This document shows positions 50,470 through 59,680 of a stretch of DNA of 64,000 nucleotides, in pieces. Below the pieces are notes generated by a model. It made no database searches. It was given only the letters and a program-made list of their open reading frames with translations, and was not told the origin of the DNA. Made by a program: the position numbers and the translations under genes. The stretch comes from Weeksellaceae bacterium. Lineage in GTDB: Bacteria; Bacteroidota; Bacteroidia; Flavobacteriales; Weeksellaceae. The stretch is from contig JAKLPS010000020.1 of NCBI GenBank assembly GCA_022013695.1, positions 124,001-188,000 on the forward strand, given 5' to 3'. Within the stretch, counting starts at the first letter, position 1. Each line of letters opens with the position of its first letter.

Positions 50470-50534
50470 TAAAAACAGATTAAATTTTTCATAGAACACT
50501 ATTTTTTATTATTATTTTCTGAAAGCATACTTTT

Positions 50535-50807
50535 ATGGAGTGTGCTTTTAAACAATATACAACAGAAAATTCCGGGATGCCTTTTAACCATACAAATTGC
50601 GTTCTTTATGACAAAAAAGAAAAAGTATTGTGGATCTCAACCTACAGAGCAGGACTGGTACGTTATGATTTGAAAGGAAATTGGGAAAACTATCATAATG
50701 AAAATTCTGAAATTCCTACTTCTTATATTTCTACAATGACCTTTGATAAAAATGGAAATCTTTATCTGGCAACATGACAAGGATTGGTAAAGATCGAGAA
50801 GAAATAA
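50535..50807 (+). pseudogene. Fragment of a two-component-regulator-type beta-propeller protein
   Basis: From ATG 50535 the frame encodes about 80 residues of propeller repeats: LYDKKEKVLWISTYRAGLVRYDLKGNWENY and STMTFDKNGNLYLAT. A TGA stop follows (50775-50777), then QGLVKIEKK and TAA at 50805-50807 in the same frame. 'LAT-stop-QGLVK' fits LATWQGLVK, so TGG probably mutated to TGA. The N-terminal part and all other repeats are missing; TGA precedes the ATG by four codons in frame. It is too short to fold as a propeller, so it is a decayed remnant. Confidence 0.75.
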
Positions 50808-50835
50808 AATTTAAATCAATTAAATATAAAAAACC

Positions 50836-50864
50836 AAAAACCCCTCCGAAAAAAATCCGGAGGG
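50836..50864 (-). terminator. Terminator of the beta-oxidation operon
   Basis: CCCTCCG (50842-50848) pairs with CGGAGGG (50858-50864). On the minus strand the stem is followed by GTTTTTGG and further T, 26 bp after the acyl-CoA dehydrogenase stop. Confidence 0.75.
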
Positions 50865-50889
50865 TTTATTATTTCAAAAAATTGATAAT

Positions 50890-52677
50890 CTAGTAAGACC
50901 CTTTCCCAATAAAATTAGCGGCAACTTTTTCTGTCAAGGCAATCGGATTTGGCGTGTTGACGTACTTTGTAAAACGTCTTAATCCTGCCAGCATCATTCT
51001 TTGCTCGTCGCCTTCGGAGAAAGACACGATGCCTTCTTTGGCGCTGGCGGAGACGATTTCCACCGCTTTATAAAGATTCAGTCTTGCCATCGCAGCTTCT
51101 ACCGAATCGGTATCGAAATGTTTCTCAGCTCTCAGGATGGCCGATTCTGCCATATAAATTTGGTTGAGGATTTCAGAAGCATTCAAAAGTAGATGTTGCT
51201 GCTGCTCGATTTCCGTCATATATTTTTGAAGGGCAGATCCGGAAACCATCAGGAATACTTTTTTCAGATTTTTGATAACTTCTTTTTCCTCAGACATATA
51301 TTCTGAATAATCCGGAACTTCGAAAGAAGGTATTCCCATCAATTCTTTCCCCACATTTTTTGCAGGCGTTAGCAGATCGATTTTGCCTTGCATTGCGCGT
51401 TTGATGAGCATTCCAACGGCAAGAAGTCGGTTGATCTCGTTGGTTCCTTCGTAGATTCTGGATATTCTGGAATCCCTCCAGGCGGCCTCCATCGGCGTAT
51501 CTTCGGAGAAGCCCATTCCGCCAAAGATTTGGATGCCCTCGTCTGCGGTGTGCTGCGCCAAATCGGAAACGTAAACTTTCAGGATAGAACATTCTACAGC
51601 AAATTCCTCCACACCTTTCAGCTCTGCTTGCTCGTGCTGCATTCCTCCTGAAACGAATTCCTCAATTTTGTTTTCGATATCTTTTGCGCCTCGGTAGGTG
51701 CCTGCTTCGCTCACGAAAATGCCGGTTGCCATCTCCGCCAGCTTCTTGCGAATGGCTCCAAAAGTGTTGATAGAAACGCCAAATTGCTTCCTCTCTGCCG
51801 CATAATTCAAAGAATGGTTAAAGATTCTTCTTTGTGCATCAAGACAGGCGGCTGCCAGCTTTATTCGGCCAACATTCAGTGCATTCAGCGCGATTTTGAA
51901 ACCGTTGTTTCTTTCGCCTAAAAGATTCTCTACCGGAACTTTCAGATCATTGAAGAAAACCTGACGTGTAGATGATGCGCGAATGCCCAATTTGTGTTCT
52001 TCCTCGCCGAAGGTCAAACTATCCGGATTTTCCAGCTCCGAACGGTTGATGACAAAACCGGTAATGTTTTTGTCGTCGTCTATCTTGGCAAAAAAAGTGA
52101 AAGTGTCTGCAAAACCGGCGTTGGAGATCCACATTTTCTGTCCGTTGATGATGTAATGCTTGCCATCGTCCGACAATCTGGCTTTTGTTTTTCCGCTGTT
52201 GGCATCGGATCCTGCTTCGGGCTCTGTCAAACAATAAGAACCGAATTTGGTTCCTGCAGCCAAGTCCGGGAGATATTTGTTTTTCAAATATTCGGTACCG
52301 TAAAGCAAGATGGGCAAAGTACCGATTCCGGTATGGGCGCCGTAAGCAGTTGCCAAAGAACCCGTTGCACCAGACAGATAATCGCAAGCCAGCGTGGTAG
52401 AGACGAAGCTCATTCCCAGTCCGCCATACGCTTCCGGAACGGCGAGTCCTAAGAATCCCATTTCTCCGATTTTCCGCATCACTTCTTCTGTGTAAGCATA
52501 GTCTTTTTTCTCAAATCTTTCCTTGTTGGGAACGACTTCTTTATCGATGAATTCTTTTGCAGAATCCCGTAGCATTTTTTGTTCTTCAGAAAGTTCTTCG
52601 ATGCTGAAGATGTCTTGGGCAGTGATATCTTTTACGAGAAATTCGCCGCCGTTCAGTGTTTTGGTTTCGGTTGACAT
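50890..52677 (-). CDS. Acyl-CoA dehydrogenase
   Basis: A 595-residue flavoprotein that introduces the first double bond of fatty acyl-CoA. The ACAD fold is visible from about residue 28: GFLGLAVPEAYGGLGM, GSYCLTEPEAGSDANSGKTKA (FAD/substrate site), NGQKMWISNAGFADTFTFFAKI, ERKQFGVSI, and IYEGTNEINRLL with the candidate catalytic Glu. A further C-terminal ~170-residue helical extension is longer than in short-chain enzymes (~380) and matches very-long-chain-like bacterial forms. It is the last gene of the beta-oxidation operon, following the 4HB element. Confidence 0.95.
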   Translation of the reverse strand: MSTETKTLNGGEFLVKDITAQDIFSIEELSEEQKMLRDSAKEFIDKEVVPNKERFEKKDYAYTEEVMRKIGEMGFLGLAVPEAYGGLGMSFVSTTLACDYLSGATGSLATAYGAHTGIGTLPILLYGTEYLKNKYLPDLAAGTKFGSYCLTEPEAGSDANSGKTKARLSDDGKHYIINGQKMWISNAGFADTFTFFAKIDDDKNITGFVINRSELENPDSLTFGEEEHKLGIRASSTRQVFFNDLKVPVENLLGERNNGFKIALNALNVGRIKLAAACLDAQRRIFNHSLNYAAERKQFGVSINTFGAIRKKLAEMATGIFVSEAGTYRGAKDIENKIEEFVSGGMQHEQAELKGVEEFAVECSILKVYVSDLAQHTADEGIQIFGGMGFSEDTPMEAAWRDSRISRIYEGTNEINRLLAVGMLIKRAMQGKIDLLTPAKNVGKELMGIPSFEVPDYSEYMSEEKEVIKNLKKVFLMVSGSALQKYMTEIEQQQHLLLNASEILNQIYMAESAILRAEKHFDTDSVEAAMARLNLYKAVEIVSASAKEGIVSFSEGDEQRMMLAGLRRFTKYVNTPNPIALTEKVAANFIGKGSY

Positions 52678-52686
52678 ATTATTTGT

Positions 52687-53123
52687 AATTTTAAATTTTA
52701 GATTATAAATTTTAAACTGATTAGACTCGCTGTTATAAATTTTCAGATGAAGTTTTGATGATTTTCGTTAAGATATTAATAATGCTTTCAATTTGTAGTA
52801 AATAAGAATCTACATCAACATTCACAAGATTTGTAGATTGATAGAGCTTTAACCAATACTTTGTTTCTCTAGCTTCCTTGTTTGCAATGGAAAGTTTTGA
52901 AATAAAATCTTTTTTGGATTGTGCAGCAATTGCTTCTTCCACATTTGCTCCAATCGATGTTCCACTTCTAAGAATCTGTTTTGAAAGTATATATTCATTT
53001 TGAGATTTGCAGTCCAAGTAAAAATTAATGATACTTAATGCAAATTCAAATGTTAAATTTTGAATCAAGTTATCTTCTTTGAAGCTCATATCATCTAAAA
53101 TTTATAATTTAAAATCTATAATT
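52687..53123 (-). mobile_element. Four-helix-bundle element 1 with flanking inverted repeats
   Basis: The four-helix-bundle gene (52733-53089) is enclosed by an AT-rich inverted repeat: left arm 52687-52714 and right arm 53096-53123, 25 of 28 positions complementary by eye (core TTTTAGATTATAAATTTTA). The unit almost exactly fills the gap between the thiolase stop and the acyl-CoA dehydrogenase start, in operon orientation. Low complexity makes the arms weaker evidence than in element 2. No transposase is present. Confidence 0.5.
52733..53089 (-). CDS. Four-helix-bundle protein (23S rRNA intervening-sequence type)
   Basis: A 118-residue all-helical protein: LTFEFALSIINFYLDCKSQNEYILSKQILRSGTSIGANVEEAIAAQSKKDFISKLSIANKEARETKYWLKLY. 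'QILRSGTSIGANVEEA' and 'KEARETKYWL' are the signature of the four-helix-bundle family first met in 23S rRNA intervening sequences (S23/IVP, also related to Avd of retroelements). Its function is unknown; nucleic-acid binding is assumed from a basic surface in studied members. It sits between the thiolase and acyl-CoA dehydrogenase genes and is closely framed by inverted repeats. Confidence 0.88.
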   Translation of the reverse strand: MSFKEDNLIQNLTFEFALSIINFYLDCKSQNEYILSKQILRSGTSIGANVEEAIAAQSKKDFISKLSIANKEARETKYWLKLYQSTNLVNVDVDSYLLQIESIINILTKIIKTSSENL

Positions 53124-53124
53124 T

Positions 53125-54300
53125 TTAGAGAAGTTCAAACACGCTCGCCGCTCCCTGACCTGTTCCTACGCACATTGTCACCACGCCGTATTTGCTGTTT
53201 CTGCGTTTCATTTCGTCAAGAAGTTGGACGGTTAATTTTGTGCCGGTGCAGCCAAGTGGATGCCCAAGTGCGATGGCGCCGCCGTTTACGTTGACGATGT
53301 CTGGATTAATGTTCAATTCTCTTAAGATTGCAACAGACTGAGATGCAAAAGCTTCATTCAACTCAAATAAATCGATGTCGGATTGTTTAAGCCCAGCTTG
53401 TTCCAACGCTTTTGGAATGGCGTACATCGGTCCGATTCCCATAATTCTTGGCGGAACACCAACAGTTGAATAGGAGAGAAGTCTCGCAACTGGAGTCAAG
53501 TTTAATTCTTTTACCATTCTTTCGGACATTATCATCGTGAAAGCAGCGCCATCAGAAGTTTGAGAAGAATTCCCGGCCGTCACAGAACCATTAGCTGCGA
53601 AAACGGGACGTAATTTTGCCAAAACTTCGACCGATGTGTCAGCTCTTGGGCCTTCATCTTGCTCAAACGCATATTCCTTGGTCTGCACTTTTTCCTTGTC
53701 GTCCAAGAAATTATATTTCACATCAATTGGAACAATCTGACGCTCAAATTTTCCTTCTTTAATGGCTTTAATGGCCTTTTGATGAGAGTTGTAAGAAAAC
53801 TCATCTTGCTCCTCTCGGCTGACTTTGAATTCGTTGGCAACCGCTTCAGCCGTCAATCCCATTCCCCAATAATAATCGGGATGTTTCTTTGCCAAATCGG
53901 TGTCAGGAATTGGTTTGTAGCCGCCCATCGGGATGTACGACATACTTTCGGCACCACCAGCAATGATGCATTCTGCCATTCCGGCTTTGATTTTCGCTGA
54001 TGCAATCGCAATCGATTCCGATCCTGATGCGCAATATCTGTTCACCGTCACGCCCGGCACTTTGTCGGTATCCAATCCCATTAAGGAGATTAGTCTTGCG
54101 ACGTTGAGTCCTTGTTCTGCCTCCGGCATCGCGCAACCGACAATCAAATCGTCGATGCGGGCGGGGTCTAGGTTTGGAACATCTTTCATCAGACGTTCTA
54201 TCACAGTTGCCGCCATATCATCGGGGCGGGTAAAACGCAAAGAACCTTTCGGCGCTTTGCCCACTGCTGTTCTGTATCCTGTTACTATGTATGCTTCCAT
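53125..54300 (-). CDS. Acetyl-CoA C-acyltransferase (thiolase)
   Basis: A 391-residue thiolase for the last beta-oxidation step. The active-site acyl cysteine is seen in TVNRYCASGSESIAIA (about residue 90). NSSQTSDGAAFTMIMSE, FELNEAFASQ, GGAIALGHPLGCTGTKL (catalytic His) and the second cysteine in TMCVGTGQGAASVFE follow. All catalytic residues are intact. It lies between the two four-helix-bundle elements, in the operon with the multifunctional enzyme upstream and the dehydrogenase downstream, which favours a degradative (FadA/AcaA) over a biosynthetic role. Confidence 0.95.
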   Translation of the reverse strand: MEAYIVTGYRTAVGKAPKGSLRFTRPDDMAATVIERLMKDVPNLDPARIDDLIVGCAMPEAEQGLNVARLISLMGLDTDKVPGVTVNRYCASGSESIAIASAKIKAGMAECIIAGGAESMSYIPMGGYKPIPDTDLAKKHPDYYWGMGLTAEAVANEFKVSREEQDEFSYNSHQKAIKAIKEGKFERQIVPIDVKYNFLDDKEKVQTKEYAFEQDEGPRADTSVEVLAKLRPVFAANGSVTAGNSSQTSDGAAFTMIMSERMVKELNLTPVARLLSYSTVGVPPRIMGIGPMYAIPKALEQAGLKQSDIDLFELNEAFASQSVAILRELNINPDIVNVNGGAIALGHPLGCTGTKLTVQLLDEMKRRNSKYGVVTMCVGTGQGAASVFELL

Positions 54301-54320
54301 TTTTATTTTGTTGTATTTAG

Positions 54321-54742
54321 GTATTAATGTAAAATGTATTTACGATTTTAAAATGTTTGAGTATTAAAATTCTGCTTCAATTTTGCTAACATATTTGGTA
54401 TGTGTTTGATTTCGGAGTAAATGATATTAAAATCATCATTTTTAAAGAATTGCAAATCTTTAGCAATTAATATTTGGGTTTCAAATTCGAATGATGAGCC
54501 TAATGCAATATTCAGAAAATGAGAAAATTGAGCATTTGTATCACGACCAGCACCTTCAGCAATATTAGACGGAATTGAAATTAAACTTCTTCTTGCCTGA
54601 GAAGTCAATCCGAACAATTCTTCGTGTGGAAAATTATTAGAAGCCAAGTAAAAGGTTTTACAAAGTTTCATCGATTTTGCCCAAGCTTCTAAATCTCTAA
54701 AATTGTGCATCGTTAATACATTAATACTTTTTACATTTTACA
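54321..54742 (-). mobile_element. Four-helix-bundle element 2 with flanking inverted repeats
   Basis: The second four-helix-bundle gene (54348-54710) is framed by GTATTAATGT plus ATTTACGAT on the left (54321-54330 and 54338-54346) and their inverse, ATCGTTAAT plus ACATTAATAC, on the right (54709-54717 and 54718-54727). The 10-base block is perfect and the 9-base block has one mismatch; the left arm carries an extra AAAATGT between them. ACATTTTAC (54734-54742) echoes GTAAAATGT in the left arm. The unit fills the gap between the multifunctional enzyme gene and the thiolase gene. Confidence 0.55.
54348..54710 (-). CDS. Four-helix-bundle protein (23S rRNA intervening-sequence type), second copy
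   Basis: A 120-residue helical protein: HNFRDLEAWAKSMKLCKTFYLASNNFPHEELFGLTSQARRSLISIPSNIAEGAGRDTNAQFSHFLNIALGSSFEFETQI. 'F.DL.AW..s..L', 'E.FGLT.Q.RR...SI..NIAEG' and 'F..FL..A.GS..E.ETQ' are the full IVP-type signature. It is clearly a different subfamily from the gene at 52733, so the two are not a recent tandem duplication. It lies between the multifunctional enzyme and thiolase genes within an inverted repeat. Role unknown. Confidence 0.93.
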   Translation of the reverse strand: MHNFRDLEAWAKSMKLCKTFYLASNNFPHEELFGLTSQARRSLISIPSNIAEGAGRDTNAQFSHFLNIALGSSFEFETQILIAKDLQFFKNDDFNIIYSEIKHIPNMLAKLKQNFNTQTF

Positions 54743-54748
54743 AAACAT

Positions 54749-57148
54749 CTAGTTTCTCACCGGCTTACCTGTCTTCAGCATTCCGGCGATTCTTTCCAAA
54801 GTTTTTTTCTCGCCGCAAAGGGAGAGGAAGGCTTCTCGTTCCAAATCCAAAAGATATTGTTCAGAAACTTCCGTTGGTTCGGAAAGATTTCCGCCCGTCA
54901 TCACGTAGCCAATTTTGTTTGCGATGAGTCGGTCGTGTTCTGAGGCATAACCGCCGGCAACCATCTGGTCGGTTCCAACGTAGAAAATTCCCATTGCTTC
55001 GCTGCCGAGCACTTTTACCCTCTCCGGAACTGGCGGTGTGTAACCTAATTCGTCTAAAACAATGGCCTGCCGTTTTGCCTCCGCAATTTGACGATCTCTA
55101 TTGACAACGATGATGTCTTTGTCGGTCAAAATTCCCATTTGCCGGGCTTCGTGCGCAGAAGTCGCTACTTTTGCGGTTGCAATGTTCATAAAGTAATTTC
55201 TCAAATGATTGGTTTTGACATCGTCTGGAAGGGTTCCTTTCAAAGCTCTTAGGGCAAACTCTTTGGTACCGCCGCCGCCCGGAATGAGACCAACGCCTAC
55301 CTCCACCAAACCGATGTAGGTCTCTGTTGAAGCCACAATTTTATCCGAATGCATCGAGAATTCGCAGCCGCCGCCCAGCGTCATACCAAACGGTGCTGCT
55401 ATTACCGGAATGGATGAATATCTCAGTTTCATAGAAGTTGATTGGAACAGAGCAACGGCCATATTGAGCTCATACCAATCCTGCTCAGCGGCCATCATCA
55501 TAATCATCGCAAGATTGGCGCCCACTGAGAAATTCTCAGCTTGATTGCCAATGACCAAACCGCGATAATCCTTCTCTGCGATCTCTATAGATTTGCTAAT
55601 GCCCTCCAAAACACCGCCGCCAAGCGTGTTCATTTTTGAACGGAATTCGAAGTTCAAGATGCCGTCGCCAAGGTCAATCAATGCAGATTCAGAATTGGAC
55701 CAAACGGTCTTTTCTTTTCTAATATTATTCAAAATGATAAAAGCATCTTGACCAGGAATGGCATCGTAAGTTTTCGTGTTTTGATTGTAAAACAAGGTCT
55801 TTCCGTTTTCTAATTTGTAGAAAGAGTCATTGCCGTTTGCCAGCATTTCCTTAACCCAATCAGCGACTTTGTAACCTTCGCTTTCCACCAAATCGATTCC
55901 TTTTTGAACTCCTAAGAAATCCCAGTTTTCGAAAGGTCCATATTTCCACGCATAGCCGGTTTTCATCGCATCATCGATGGAGTAGAAGACATCGGTGATT
56001 TCCGGAACGCGTTGCGAAACGTAGGCAAAAAGCGAAGCATAATGTTTTCTAATCAGTTCGCCTGCTTTGGTTTGATCTTTCAGCAAAATCGGCAAACGGT
56101 TTTTCAGACTTCCGGCTTCCTTAGCTGCTTGTACGATAGGAAGTTTCGGTTGTTTCGTAGGTTCGTAGCCAAGTGTCTGATAATTAAGCACAAAACGATT
56201 GACGTTTCCGCCGGCATCTTTTTCTTTATAATAGAATCCTTTTTTACTTTTATCACCAAAGAATTTATTTTCGATCAAATGATTCAAAGTTTTAGAATCC
56301 TTAAGCGCTTGCACCATTTCGTCATCTTTTAGATTGGCTTGCAATCCTTTTGTAACACTGACTGCGGTGTCGAGACCAACCAAATCTCCCAATTTGAAAG
56401 TTCCGGTTTTTGGGCGGTTCAGCAAATCGCCCGTCAGAGCATCGGCTTCCTCGATGGTCAGTCCGATTTCCTCCGTGAGTTCCATAATTTTGGACATAGA
56501 GTAAACGCCGATTCGGTTTCCGATGAAGCCCGGCGTGTCTTTGCAGAGCACCGTGGTTTTCCCAAGGAATTTTTCCGCATATGACATCAAGAAATCAACG
56601 ACCGACTTGTCGGTTTTCGGTCCCGGAATCACTTCGAATAATTTCAAATATCGTGGCGGATTGAAGAAATGCGTTCCGCAGAAATGCTTCTGAAAATCTT
56701 CTGACCTCCCTTCCGACATCAAGTGAATCGGAATTCCAGAGGTGTTGGAGGTGATCAAAGTTCCTGGTTTGCGCAGTTTGTCCACTTTTTCAAACATCGA
56801 TTGCTTGATGTCCAATCTTTCCACGATAACCTCGATTACCCAATCCGAATTTTTGATTTTTTCCAAATCATCTTCGAAGTTGCCAGTGGTAATTCTGGAA
56901 GCGAAAGATTTGTCGTAGATGGGTGAAGGGTTGCTTTTCAGAGCGTTGTCAAGATGGCCTTGCGCCACGCTGTTTCTGAATTTTTTACTTTCTGGATTCA
57001 CGCCCGTTGCTTTGTCTTTGTCCGACAATTCTTTGGGAGGCATATCCAACATCAAAACCTGAATCCCGTTACCAGCCAAGTGGCAGGCAATGCCGGAACC
57101 CATCACGCCGGAGCCGAGAACCGTTACGTGTTTTATTTTTCTGTTCAT
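54749..57148 (-). CDS. 3-hydroxyacyl-CoA dehydrogenase/enoyl-CoA hydratase (multifunctional beta-oxidation enzyme)
   Basis: A 799-residue fusion performing the middle steps of beta-oxidation. The NAD-binding dehydrogenase comes first (KHVTVLGSGVMGSGIACHLAG, residues 5-25; FFNPPRYLKLFEVIPGPKT near 165; KDTPGFIGNRIG). A crotonase/enoyl-CoA hydratase domain follows at about 480-700 (SVGANLAMIMMMA; GMTLGGGCEFSMHSDKIVAS; LIPGGGGTKEFALRA). This order, dehydrogenase before hydratase, is reversed from E. coli FadB and typical of the FadB-like/FadN group. It is the first enzyme gene of the operon, 19 bp after MarR. Confidence 0.94.
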   Translation of the reverse strand: MNRKIKHVTVLGSGVMGSGIACHLAGNGIQVLMLDMPPKELSDKDKATGVNPESKKFRNSVAQGHLDNALKSNPSPIYDKSFASRITTGNFEDDLEKIKNSDWVIEVIVERLDIKQSMFEKVDKLRKPGTLITSNTSGIPIHLMSEGRSEDFQKHFCGTHFFNPPRYLKLFEVIPGPKTDKSVVDFLMSYAEKFLGKTTVLCKDTPGFIGNRIGVYSMSKIMELTEEIGLTIEEADALTGDLLNRPKTGTFKLGDLVGLDTAVSVTKGLQANLKDDEMVQALKDSKTLNHLIENKFFGDKSKKGFYYKEKDAGGNVNRFVLNYQTLGYEPTKQPKLPIVQAAKEAGSLKNRLPILLKDQTKAGELIRKHYASLFAYVSQRVPEITDVFYSIDDAMKTGYAWKYGPFENWDFLGVQKGIDLVESEGYKVADWVKEMLANGNDSFYKLENGKTLFYNQNTKTYDAIPGQDAFIILNNIRKEKTVWSNSESALIDLGDGILNFEFRSKMNTLGGGVLEGISKSIEIAEKDYRGLVIGNQAENFSVGANLAMIMMMAAEQDWYELNMAVALFQSTSMKLRYSSIPVIAAPFGMTLGGGCEFSMHSDKIVASTETYIGLVEVGVGLIPGGGGTKEFALRALKGTLPDDVKTNHLRNYFMNIATAKVATSAHEARQMGILTDKDIIVVNRDRQIAEAKRQAIVLDELGYTPPVPERVKVLGSEAMGIFYVGTDQMVAGGYASEHDRLIANKIGYVMTGGNLSEPTEVSEQYLLDLEREAFLSLCGEKKTLERIAGMLKTGKPVRN

Positions 57149-57167
57149 TTAATAAGATTTGTTTTTA

Positions 57168-57629
57168 TTATTTTCTATTATTAAGCTCATTGGCAATTTT
57201 CAGAATGTCGCTCATCACTTCTTTGAAGACTTCAAATTTTTCCGGCTGAATTCTTTCGACAATCTTTTTATTAAAATTGAGCACCACTTCTTTGGATAAA
57301 TTTCTGGAATTGATTCCCTTTTCCGTCAACTTGATGATGACTTCGCGCTTATCGGTAGTGGTTTTTTCTTTGTAGATGTAGCCGTTGTCTTCCAGAAGTT
57401 TGATGATTCTGGTGAGCGAAGTTGGCTCAATTGCCATTTTCGGACCCAGATTGGTGCTTCTCGTTCCTTCTTTCGGGTCAATTTTAAGCAAAGTAAGTGC
57501 CTGAACGGCGGTAGAATTATACAAAGAAGCCCGATCGGAGTACATCTTCGAAACTGCCAGCCACGCAGACTTGAGCATCAAGTCCACACTTTCGACTTTT
57601 TCTGAATTTTTCTTTTCCATAAGGATCAT
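57168..57629 (-). CDS. MarR-family regulator of the beta-oxidation operon
   Basis: A 153-residue winged-helix regulator. The core ALTLLKIDPKEGTRSTNLGPKMAIEPTSLTRIIKLLEDNGYIYKEKTTTDKREVIIKLTEKG holds the recognition helix (PTSLTRIIKLLEDNG) and the wing (DKREVIIKLT). The operon's first gene, it ends 19 bp before the multifunctional enzyme gene. Two starts are possible: ATG 57627-57629 and ATG 57618-57620, three codons apart. A perfect 22-bp palindrome at its promoter (57659-57680) suggests autoregulation of the whole fatty-acid operon, presumably relieved by acyl-CoA. Confidence 0.93.
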   Translation of the reverse strand: MILMEKKNSEKVESVDLMLKSAWLAVSKMYSDRASLYNSTAVQALTLLKIDPKEGTRSTNLGPKMAIEPTSLTRIIKLLEDNGYIYKEKTTTDKREVIIKLTEKGINSRNLSKEVVLNFNKKIVERIQPEKFEVFKEVMSDILKIANELNNRK

Positions 57630-57645
57630 ATTGAGGTGCTTTTCA

Positions 57646-57680
57646 CAAATATAAAAAAAATACTATGCATGCATAGTATT
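57646..57680 (-). promoter_or_regulatory. Promoter and 22-bp palindromic operator of the beta-oxidation operon
   Basis: Bases 57659-57680 form a perfect palindrome with half-site AATACTATGCA. On the minus strand it is followed 5 bp later by the -7 box TATATTTG (57646-57653), so the operator lies between the -33 and -7 elements. The MarR start codon follows within about 20 bp. Length and symmetry are those of a MarR dimer site. Confidence 0.75.
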
Positions 57681-57761
57681 CTAACTTATAAATATGTAAG
57701 TAATTGATTATTTGACAGTTAATTATTATGCAAAACTTAATAATAAAAAATCAAACTGCTT

Positions 57762-58715
57762 TCAATGTTCGTCATTGTCAGTATTGATAAGGTATTGTAG
57801 CGATTGTTTCAAATCTGAAAATGTATGATAATTGCCACAAAAATTACCCGTTTTCAGCTCCCATTCATCATTTTGGAAGGTCAGTTTGAATTTTTGCAGA
57901 TTTGAAGAAAAGTTTTTTTGAAGAAACGAAAACATCATTTCCTTTTCCAGCTTTGGCGCTTCTATCTCCGGCGGGCGAAAATTCTTGTTAAAATCCAGAA
58001 TTTTGGGTGCAATCAATTCAGGGCTATTGAGCATGACTTCTTCCGCAATGCCGCTGGTGAGTTTTTTGTCTTTCAACCACCAGATTTTGTCCGAAAATTC
58101 CTTTGCCAATCTCCAGTCGTGGGAAGAAAAGAGAATTAATTTGTTTTCATTTTTCGCAAGATTTCTGATTAGAGAAAGAATCATCAGTTTGTTTTCTTCG
58201 TCCAAATGCGTGGTGGGTTCGTCCAAAATAATGAAAGGAGAATTTTGCGCCAAAGCCCTCCCAATAAAGGCTTTTTGGAGATTTCCGTCGGAGAGTTCTA
58301 TTAACTTGGTATGTCGAAATGGCGTGAGATTCAGTTTGCTGATGATTTCATCGATTTCAGTTTTATCCTTTTCATTCAATTTAAAATAATAAGGATAATG
58401 AATGTATTTTCCAAGTGAAATTAAATCTGTAACGGTGTAATTTTCAGGTATTTCGGATTTTGAAAAAACGATGGCAATTTTGCAAGCTATTTCGCTCGGA
58501 TTCATCTTCTGAATCGGTTTTCCGTTGATTGAAATTTCGCCATTCAAAAGTTTGTTCTGTCCGAGAATTGATTTGATTAAAGTAGTCTTCCCAATGCCGT
58601 TATTGCCCATCAACAGGCAGACTTCGCCTAATTCTAAGGAAGTATTGATGTCAGAAATCAATGGTTCTGAATATCCGATGGATGCATTAATTATTTTGAG
58701 AAAATTCATCATCAT
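57762..58715 (-). CDS. ABC transporter ATPase for iron-siderophore/haem/cobalamin-type uptake
   Basis: A 317-residue nucleotide-binding protein of the FecE/BtuD type: Walker A MGNNGIGKTTLIK (about residues 36-48), signature LIELSDGNLQKAFIGRALAQ (LSDGN instead of LSGGQ), Walker B FIILDEPTTHLDEEN, and H-loop LFSSHDW. The usual Q-loop glutamine is not evident (IAIVFSKSEIPENYTVTD). Residues ~225-317 form a C-terminal extension beyond the usual ~255, ending KQSLQYLINTDNDEH; its role is unknown. It overlaps the permease stop by 4 bp (ATGA). Confidence 0.88.
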   Translation of the reverse strand: MMMNFLKIINASIGYSEPLISDINTSLELGEVCLLMGNNGIGKTTLIKSILGQNKLLNGEISINGKPIQKMNPSEIACKIAIVFSKSEIPENYTVTDLISLGKYIHYPYYFKLNEKDKTEIDEIISKLNLTPFRHTKLIELSDGNLQKAFIGRALAQNSPFIILDEPTTHLDEENKLMILSLIRNLAKNENKLILFSSHDWRLAKEFSDKIWWLKDKKLTSGIAEEVMLNSPELIAPKILDFNKNFRPPEIEAPKLEKEMMFSFLQKNFSSNLQKFKLTFQNDEWELKTGNFCGNYHTFSDLKQSLQYLINTDNDEH

Positions 58716-59680
58716 TTCTTTTTAATAAGCATCAACAATATCACCGGAATCCCAAAAAACGTCGTAATAATATTAATCGGAAACTGGCTCAGTTCTGAAA
58801 TAATCGAAAAAACCTGCATGATCAAAATTCCCAAAACGATATTCAAAATCCATTGATGCCAAAGCTGAGCGGGATTCCAAAGCATTCTGCAAAAATGCGG
58901 AACCACGATTCCGATAAATAAAATCGGTCCCAAAAAGGCCGTCACAGAAGCCGACAGAATAGAAGAAGCTAGAATAATACTGATTTTCAATTTCGATTGG
59001 CTGACGCCAAAACTCTGAGCATAAGCCGATCCCAAAGCATTACCAATCAACGGTTTGATGGATCTGAAAGTGAAAAACAATCCGATAATTATTAAAATGG
59101 TTAAGATGGAAATTTGAGAAAAATTGGCTTGGTTATTCGCTCCGAAAGTCCACAGAATATAATTTTTCAGACTTTGACTTTCCACATAAAATTGAAGACA
59201 AGAAACAACCGCTCCAGCTAAAGCAGAAATCAGAAAACCGAAAATTATGATGAAACTTTTGTCGCGAAATCGATTGGAAAATAAAAGCAAAACCAACATC
59301 AGAACTACACTTCCAAGAATTGATGACAAGCTGATGAAACTGTTCTGCAGAAAATCCGGAATCGGAATATCCTGTGAAAAGAAAATGTAAAACGCGACAA
59401 ACAAACCGGAAACCGAGGTAATTCCCAAAACATCCGGTCCGGCCAAAGGATTCTTGAAATATTCCTGCAAAAGAAAGCCACTCGTCGGGATTGCAATTCC
59501 GGCTAAAATCATTGCTAAAGCGCGATTGATACGGAATCCCGCGACTTCAAAGTTTTCTTTTTCAGAATCTAAAAAGTCGGAGAAGTTGAGTTTTGCATAA
59601 CCAACATTCAAATTGATAAGGAACGAAATGATGATTCCGACAATGATAAAAAAGCAAATAATTCCAAATTTATTTTTCAA
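58712..59680 (-). CDS. FecCD-family ABC transporter permease
   Basis: A 322-residue polytopic membrane protein with about nine to ten helices and the FecCD landmarks NRALAMILAGIAIPTSGFLLQEYFKNPLAGPDVLGI (about residues 53-87), then IGNALGSAYAQSFGVS and FLGPILFIGIVVPHFCRML near 265-285, the coupling region. It should pair with the downstream ATPase to import iron chelates, haem or cobalamin. It starts at TTG (59678-59680), with a stop close upstream in frame. No substrate-binding protein gene adjoins it. Confidence 0.9.
   Translation of the reverse strand: MKNKFGIICFFIIVGIIISFLINLNVGYAKLNFSDFLDSEKENFEVAGFRINRALAMILAGIAIPTSGFLLQEYFKNPLAGPDVLGITSVSGLFVAFYIFFSQDIPIPDFLQNSFISLSSILGSVVLMLVLLLFSNRFRDKSFIIIFGFLISALAGAVVSCLQFYVESQSLKNYILWTFGANNQANFSQISILTILIIIGLFFTFRSIKPLIGNALGSAYAQSFGVSQSKLKISIILASSILSASVTAFLGPILFIGIVVPHFCRMLWNPAQLWHQWILNIVLGILIMQVFSIISELSQFPINIITTFFGIPVILLMLIKKK

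Follow-up and report, generated by a model that had tools for sequence, protein, structure and literature searches.

What are two small genes of one protein family doing in successive gaps of a conserved metabolic operon? The question is raised by a 64,000-nt stretch of Weeksellaceae DNA (contig JAKLPS010000020.1, positions 124,001 to 188,000; hereafter the window), on whose minus strand the genes for a MarR regulator, a FadB-type enzyme, a thiolase and an acyl-CoA dehydrogenase follow one another as a fad operon, with small open reading frames (ORFs) on either side of the thiolase gene. These ORFs encode four-helix-bundle (4HB) proteins, and we consider it probable that both belong to a family of ~0.4-kb mobile elements residing in operon junctions. 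Each element is built from a G-rich array of 7/8-nt units, a 4HB gene and a complementary C-rich array; these tandem arrays of fixed polarity, absent from an earlier note on this DNA, are its most telling feature. In operon order, the locus reads:

57168..57629, minus strand: MarR-family regulator, gene 1 of the fad operon (profile match)
54749..57148, minus strand: FadB-type 3-hydroxyacyl-CoA dehydrogenase / enoyl-CoA hydratase (profile match)
54711..54744, minus strand: element A, upstream (G-type) array (bounds drawn by eye); its best inverted-repeat core, 54723-54737, reads AATGTAAAAAGTATT in operon sense
54348..54710, minus strand: element A, 4HB gene, 120 aa (PF05635, TIGR02436)
54313..54346, minus strand: element A, downstream (C-type) array (bounds drawn by eye), complementing the upstream array with one repeat unit more
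53125..54300, minus strand: thiolase (profile match)
53093..53127, minus strand: element B, upstream (G-type) 7-nt array, reaching the thiolase stop codon (53125-53127)
52733..53089, minus strand: element B, 4HB gene, 118 aa (PF05635, TIGR02436)
52681..52716, minus strand: element B, downstream (C-type) 7-nt array, complementing the upstream array at 25/28 positions
50890..52677, minus strand: acyl-CoA dehydrogenase (FadE type), final gene of the operon (profile match)

Both small proteins are clear family members, with PF05635 E-values of 1.4e-35 and 2e-23, PF05635 bit scores of 83.1 and 122.2 (Pfam cut-off, 33.8) and TIGR02436 bit scores of 98.1 and 113.2 (cut-off, 24). In Pfam, PF05635 was their sole domain, with neither an HUH Y1 domain nor a transposase of their own. 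The earlier note had placed both genes correctly, in operon direction in the gaps around the thiolase gene, and its view of two insertions rather than a duplication agrees with the 18% identity between the two proteins, which assigns them to two subfamilies. A role as defense or phage protein was rejected: neither protein had a match in PADLOC or PHROG, and tblastn, run with the element A protein only, returned no phage records. The same genome holds four intact 4HB genes and one degraded copy, the intact ones lying in the two fad gaps and in the trpE/trpG and carA/carB junctions.

Inverted repeats frame both genes, as had been proposed. That of element B (52687-52714 / 53096-53123; 28 nt, 89% or 25/28 matching) has a score reached by none of 300 and none of 200 dinucleotide shuffles. 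The repeat of element A is weaker, its score being reached by 4/300 shuffles in one test and by 1/200 in another; the repeats are thus better than shuffled sequence, that of element A alone moderately so. A 7-base insertion in the latter corresponds, by eye, to one unit of its 7-nt array. Among the 55 window ORFs tested for framing inverted repeats, the two 4HB genes were the only ones to pass at <=2/200 shuffles. Three lag-7 periodic stretches in the window scored >=12, and the top two (17 and 14) are the arms of element B; the third (12) lies at 59220. In control rows from the fad loci of relatives, 23 of 348 passed, which we sorted by hand into 8 further 4HB copies, 6 copies of an IS200-like gene and 9 others.

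If these are insertions, the same gaps should differ between relatives. The FadB protein was matched in 182/197 genomes of the family, and we read 60 of these loci plus the window, calling the FadB-thiolase interval gap 1 and the thiolase-dehydrogenase interval gap 2. An intact 4HB gene occupies gap 1 in 29/61 loci (one of them, L078, without a thiolase behind it) and is shortened in L092; among the 59 measurable gaps 2, 27 hold an intact and 3 a shortened gene (L070, L083, L086), and in L046 the gene is broken by a stop. Short intervals of <=90 bp were seen in 17/60 (gap 1) and 20/59 (gap 2). The occupants belong to various subfamilies, and all 61 of the 61 4HB ORF hits in fad loci are co-oriented with the operon. 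In a shuffle test of the gap copies, one of 55 being too short, 39/54 passed at 3/300. Even the nearest relative, with a 97% identical FadB, combines the same element A with another subfamily in gap 2. A tree of 23 congeneric species, built from the three genes that flank the gaps and with gap states assigned by hand, implies at least 13 changes in gap 1 (7 states) and at least 10 in gap 2 (4 states).

The fad gaps also house other content. Gap 1 carries a separate element, an IS200-like Y1 transposase (Y1_Tnp) gene surrounded by palindromic GC-rich repeats, in five congeners (L042, L043, L044, L047, L051) and in L087, and a gene-less version of it in L055 and L058; in gap 2 of L045, L052, L056 and L058, a YhcG/DUF1016 PDDEXK nuclease gene stands in place of the 4HB cassette (Pfam was run on single copies, L044 and L052, respectively). 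A lipoprotein-like ORF without Pfam matches in gap 1 of L075 (3243-3692) has 7-nt arrays on both sides by eye and is possibly another array cargo, and in gap 2 of L043 and L053 the 4HB gene is flanked by two complete array hairpins, much like a composite element. Finally, the operon genes themselves are discordant in their identity to window 50890-57629 in L076, L077, L083, L086 and others: in some genera, FadB is about 57-58% identical while MarR, thiolase and FadE reach 75-86%, and in other genera the identities of FadB and thiolase exceed those of MarR and FadE. This pattern suggests that single fad genes have been replaced.

For a broader view of the element ends, we collected 140 distinct 4HB copies from the genus and beyond, forming 43 subfamilies (60% identity, single linkage); these copies are not independent, which applies to all statistics drawn from them. 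Arms were delimited by searching 120 nt for the best local inverted match, a procedure that can overrun into adjacent codons. Arms exceeding shuffles were found in 104/140 copies, with 37/43 subfamilies having one such copy or more, and they are degenerate tandem arrays of 7-nt, sometimes 8-nt, units. Lag-7 identity was 0.504 and 0.528 in the two arms against an expected 0.335 and 0.349 (z 11.7 and 11.8), with further periodicity at lag 8 (z 6.4 and 6.8) and lag 14 (z 5.9 and 5.6); within the 4HB genes, lag identity was flat. The arrays are also polar, the upstream arm having more G than C in 35/37 subfamilies, with two ties and none reversed, and the downstream arm being complementary. Since the arms are complementary, this polarity is set relative to the gene and does not reflect a strand bias of the chromosome. 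One conserved 4HB gene, subfamily 6, stands at one site in five congeners (L009-L013) without detectable arms and may be a domesticated copy.

Among close relatives, arms follow the protein subfamily. The arm score was 15.6 within the own subfamily and 8.3 with other subfamilies, and the similarity of upstream arms was 12.4 for members of one subfamily at another site (31 pairs), against 5.9 when a different subfamily shared the site (428 pairs) and 5.3 when subfamily and site both differed (4679 pairs). An arm score >=9 was reached by 10/10 pairs with a normalised protein score >=0.8, by 31% of 71 pairs at 0.6-0.8, by 10% at 0.5-0.6 and by 2-4% below 0.5. In a test for concerted evolution, the own arms were favored in 209 pairs and the reverse in 85, with 75 ties; because the pairs are non-independent, concerted evolution of arms within subfamilies is weakly supported.

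Other operons also bear on mobility. As many as 130/140 4HB copies lie between two genes on their own strand, which is the majority context in 41/43 subfamilies; for comparison, 368/526 gaps of >=25 nt in 800 kb of one congener are tandem, orientation ignored. Neighbors were identified with a simple ORF criterion that admits some spurious small ORFs, and those that we take to be trpE, trpG, carA, carB, ftsZ, murE, mraY, sufA, sufB and metH were named by recognizing their sequences rather than by a search. Seven sites are occupied by more than one subfamily. Conversely, eight subfamilies (0, 5, 8, 10, 12, 14, 16, 22) recur at more than one site, as read manually after discarding spurious ORFs. 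The upstream stop codon is overlapped by the upstream arm in 45/103 copies and lies within 6 nt of it or overlaps in 69/103, and in 81/100 the downstream arm ends <=20 nt from the following start codon or extends beyond it.

Two junctions illustrate this well. Between trpE and trpG, 11 of 23 congeners have a 4-nt ATGA overlap, 6 a 4HB element, 2 another ORF and the remaining 4 some 84-103 nt of other sequence. In occupied junctions, the upstream array contains the trpE stop codon by eye, and in L381 AATT, a conceivable target-site duplication, flanks both sides (one case, by eye, in AT-rich sequence). L380 and L384, which lack the 4HB gene, retain an 8-nt piece resembling the downstream array, a possible footprint. 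The native trpG start (ATG) is gone in L369, L370 and L386. In these three loci and, for part of metH, in L024, an open frame runs through the downstream array and adds it to the N terminus of the following protein, for example MTDILKPSTINHQLST ahead of TrpG. The carA-carB junction is near-empty (4 nt) in 4/22 loci and holds a 4HB element in another 4/22, one further locus being incomplete; the other 14/22 carry 220-1340 nt of other content. In L352, L356, L363 and L365, which have no recognised 4HB gene there, the junction is taken up by long arrays of 7-nt-like units (GTAGACAGT...). Empty sites thus exist at trpE/trpG and carA/carB, and many fad gaps are short; the proposed spread of protein-bearing, repeat-ended insertions into intergenic operon sites is supported. 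Precise empty sites, combined with subfamilies recurring with similar ends in unrelated operons, give these loci the look of mobile cassettes.

The anatomy extends beyond the genus. Scanning named genomes with one peptide pattern, we took the best 80 of 585 candidates and tested 79, L254 being too short. Arms were present at 56/79 loci (<=1/200 shuffles), again periodic (z 14.6, 11.2 and 5.9 at lags 7, 14 and 21) and polar (upstream arm richer in G 51 times, in C 3 times, 2 ties), and at 73/79 loci both neighbors share the strand of the 4HB gene. According to record titles, these loci are mostly from Bacteroidota; the same pattern occurs on a few contigs of metagenome-assembled genomes labelled Desulfobacteraceae, Chlorobiota and Limnohabitans, where mis-binning is possible. 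On cyanobacterial plasmids, 8/12 loci have inverted arms at 0/200, with units such as GTAGGGA, GGGAACA and GGGAAAA by eye, and 8/12 lie in sense between co-directional genes. Two cyanobacterial loci, L168 and L174, have arrays in direct orientation by eye; nothing clear was seen in L169 and L178. Cyanobacterial copies split cas6/cas4 twice and cmr2/cmr3 once.

Arrays also occur without the gene. The d-type array was found, among the matches listed, at many places in 21/23 genus genomes (reversed-pattern control, 0), with no match listed in the window's genome or in G013. Opening 30 d-type loci revealed several short gene-less hairpins at gene ends, others being single arms or longer arrays; gene-less hairpins with arrays of element B (bB-type) exist as well. 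A census of one congener (G018:C1:1-800000) counted 55 lag-7 and 19 lag-8 intergenic stretches versus 2 to 8 at lags 4-6 and 9-12. Its 12 inverted array pairs comprise 2 around a 4HB gene, 6 without an ORF and 4 spanning other genes, and arrays stand at both ends of 16/718 genes, including two 4HB genes. In tandem gaps of the census, arrays that are C-rich in sense outnumber G-rich ones by 44 to 19 (4 ties) and often lie just before a start, which recalls the TAACTGA repeats discussed below.

Several observations weigh against reading these loci as a family of mobile elements whose protein belongs to its arrays. Clear arms are lacking in 36/140 copies, including all five of subfamily 6, and inverted arms in 4/12 cyanobacterial copies; 3/12 of the latter are antisense to both neighbors. 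Arms of different subfamilies resemble each other slightly more when they share a site than when they do not (the 5.9 vs 5.3 given above; p 1e-6). The cross-site link between arm and protein comes from subfamilies 5, 8, 10 and 14; most of the 16 subfamily 0 pairs score close to chance, and subfamilies 12, 16 and 22 have no testable pair. An overall correlation of protein and arm is absent (Mantel rho 0.012, p 0.39), such that the predicted covariation of repeats with protein subfamily holds for close relatives and fails at longer distances. The best different-site pair, at carA/carB and an ftsZ/yqeY-like pair, is 84% identical in DNA, so that very recent transposition is unseen. The census found 86 intergenic array stretches and four 4HB genes in 800 kb; with arrays this much commoner, the protein need not be the array mover. 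Lastly, the elements contain no recombinase, and none was identified elsewhere.

How do other explanations fare? The complementary arms might act in RNA, pairing in the mRNA as in 23S rRNA intervening sequences (IVS) and determining how the transcript is processed or how strongly the operon genes are expressed relative to one another, much as the earlier note had imagined with its hairpins. The predicted fold of gap-2 RNA indeed pairs the arms (z -2.1, with 2/100 shuffles as good). For gap 1, however, z was -1.0, Rfam gave no matches, and among arm mismatches G.U does not outnumber A.C (84 vs 92; 40 vs 46 with one copy per subfamily). Selection for an RNA helix thus left no signal, the hairpin claim is not supported, and an RNA-level element appears quite unlikely. 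A role for the arrays as dispersed hairpin repeats of the host, with the 4HB gene homing into the loop of its cognate hairpin, is unlikely too, though it has more to recommend it: solo hairpins with d-type and bB-type arrays are dispersed in congeners, d-type 4HB genes in fad gap 2 have a hairpin on both sides or on one, and IVS replace tetraloops of 23S helices, according to a passage of PMC4990558. However, no orthologous site among those examined pairs a solo hairpin with a 4HB version of the same array, and many empty trpE/trpG and carA/carB sites consist of just a 4-nt junction with no hairpin.

Transposition might also be dispensed with altogether, if the variety of the gaps arose solely by homologous recombination of flanks that carry old, vertically inherited cassettes. 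The free combination of gap alleles between species would follow, as would the ceiling of 84% identity between different-site copies; against this stand the bare empty junctions and the presence of one subfamily at unrelated operons, several with matching arms, making such a history highly improbable. A last alternative regards the protein as the accessory of a retroelement, similar to Avd, with a reverse transcriptase supplied in trans. PF05635 does resemble Avd (part of PMC10053308), yet reverse transcriptase matches occur in only 14/59 relatives and are absent from G026 and G033 despite 11 and 13 4HB matches, although the elements there are possibly inactive now. There is no PF00078 match in the window's genome, which disfavors dependence on a resident reverse transcriptase, and we regard this alternative as exceedingly unlikely.

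Returning to the mobile family, we asked what its protein might do. Median dN/dS values of 0.05-0.31 in 14 subfamilies indicate purifying selection, that is, the 4HB protein is kept. The solved structures nearest to the window proteins, 2GSC and 2RLD, have five chains per entry and are presumably pentamers, as we take Avd to be. With TRAP as the model for a ring that reads tandem units, we propose by analogy that the 4HB protein would form a ring and bind the repeats in single-stranded DNA or RNA form; five subunits reading 7 nt each would span 35 nt, about as long as many arms are. The ring would bring the two ends of the element together, host enzymes would cut and join, slippage and copying between arms would keep the arrays alike, and placement in sense at a stop-to-start junction would let the operon supply the element's transcript. 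That such a ring reads the 7-nt arrays and places the element at operon stop/start junctions is our bolder reading, offered tentatively; that it binds the arrays and draws the ends together, in the manner just sketched, we consider rather unlikely. As to why the unit has 7 nt, a three-frame stop test found 3.69 and 2.98 stops in upstream arms (modestly above shuffles, 3.19 +/- 0.17 and 2.61 +/- 0.11) versus 2.57 and 1.54 in downstream arms. Because that excess is modest and the downstream arms of the genus set exceed their shuffles too (2.57 vs 2.11 +/- 0.12), stops in three frames as the cause are a suggestion only.

In summary, the family is real, widespread and apparently mobile, an IVS kind of element outside rRNA with arrays for ends. 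If so, S23/intervening sequence proteins (IVP) and heptamer repeats would each gain a testable partner. The reading would also offer a reason for 4HB genes inside conserved operons; among the cas genes on plasmids of Cyanobacteria, for instance, mere proximity could be misread as a functional tie. It would show, too, how operons such as trpEG and carAB can take up an insertion with both genes left intact.

Among known systems, repetitive extragenic palindromes and their associated transposases (REP/RAYT) combine palindromic ends framing a protein gene with dispersed gene-less copies. The dispersal of gene-less ends, as d-type arrays and solo hairpins, is shared by the 4HB elements; unlike REP/RAYT, these have no HUH transposase, and their ends are 7-nt arrays. 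In diversity-generating retroelements, Avd is a related 4HB protein (in part of PMC10053308), but the window's genome lacks the reverse transcriptase (PF00078) of those systems. A legend in a large CRISPR survey lists '23S rRNA IVP' in a figure on CRISPR association (PMC10910872), and a Flavobacterium columnare paper (PMC5524665) tabulates a 4HB gene that follows guanylate kinase at a distance of about 35 nt in a listed phage region, an arrangement that fits the same anatomy.

The closest relatives of the protein are found in rRNA. According to passages of PMC4990558, the 23S rRNA IVS of Coxiella burnetii carries an S23p gene in 428 nt with terminal inverted repeats and a 28-bp stem; passages of PMC11270868 describe IVP ORFs also in 16S rRNA insertions of candidate phyla radiation (CPR) bacteria and call the S23 domain functionally uncharacterized. 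The protein family is the same here, where a 447-nt gap has 28-nt arms. Different from IVS, the window elements lie between fad genes rather than in a 23S rRNA helix, with no Rfam match at 50500-57800; elements of this type sit in operon stop/start junctions, end in 7/8-nt arrays and show no sign of selection for RNA pairing. The Coxiella S23p, moreover, is reported to undergo reductive evolution, in contrast with the purifying selection seen here.

The arrays, in turn, recall the heptamer repeats of Cyanobacteria, known by name and history as short tandemly repeated repetitive (STRR) sequences. Our arrays presumably resemble them. For TAACTGA repeats of Beggiatoaceae, Cyanobacteria and Bacteroidetes, parts of MacGregor 2015 (PMC4679880) describe mostly intergenic 7-nt tandem arrays, many adjoining start codons and without a known carrier, and consider a repeat-binding protein as a mobile element; the main text of that paper has no mention of S23, TIGR02436 or 'four helix'. 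Among the matches listed for the open-licence PMC literature (titles and abstract openings, preprints excluded), none linked 4HB proteins to heptamer arrays or intergenic mobile elements. The arms of our elements share the 7-nt tandem periodicity of these repeats and differ in forming complementary pairs around 4HB genes. It is conceivable, if on balance not expected, that IVP/S23 4HB proteins are the partner of the heptamer repeats of Cyanobacteria and Bacteroidota, in a transposase-free class of mobile elements of which the rRNA IVS would be the rRNA-resident members.

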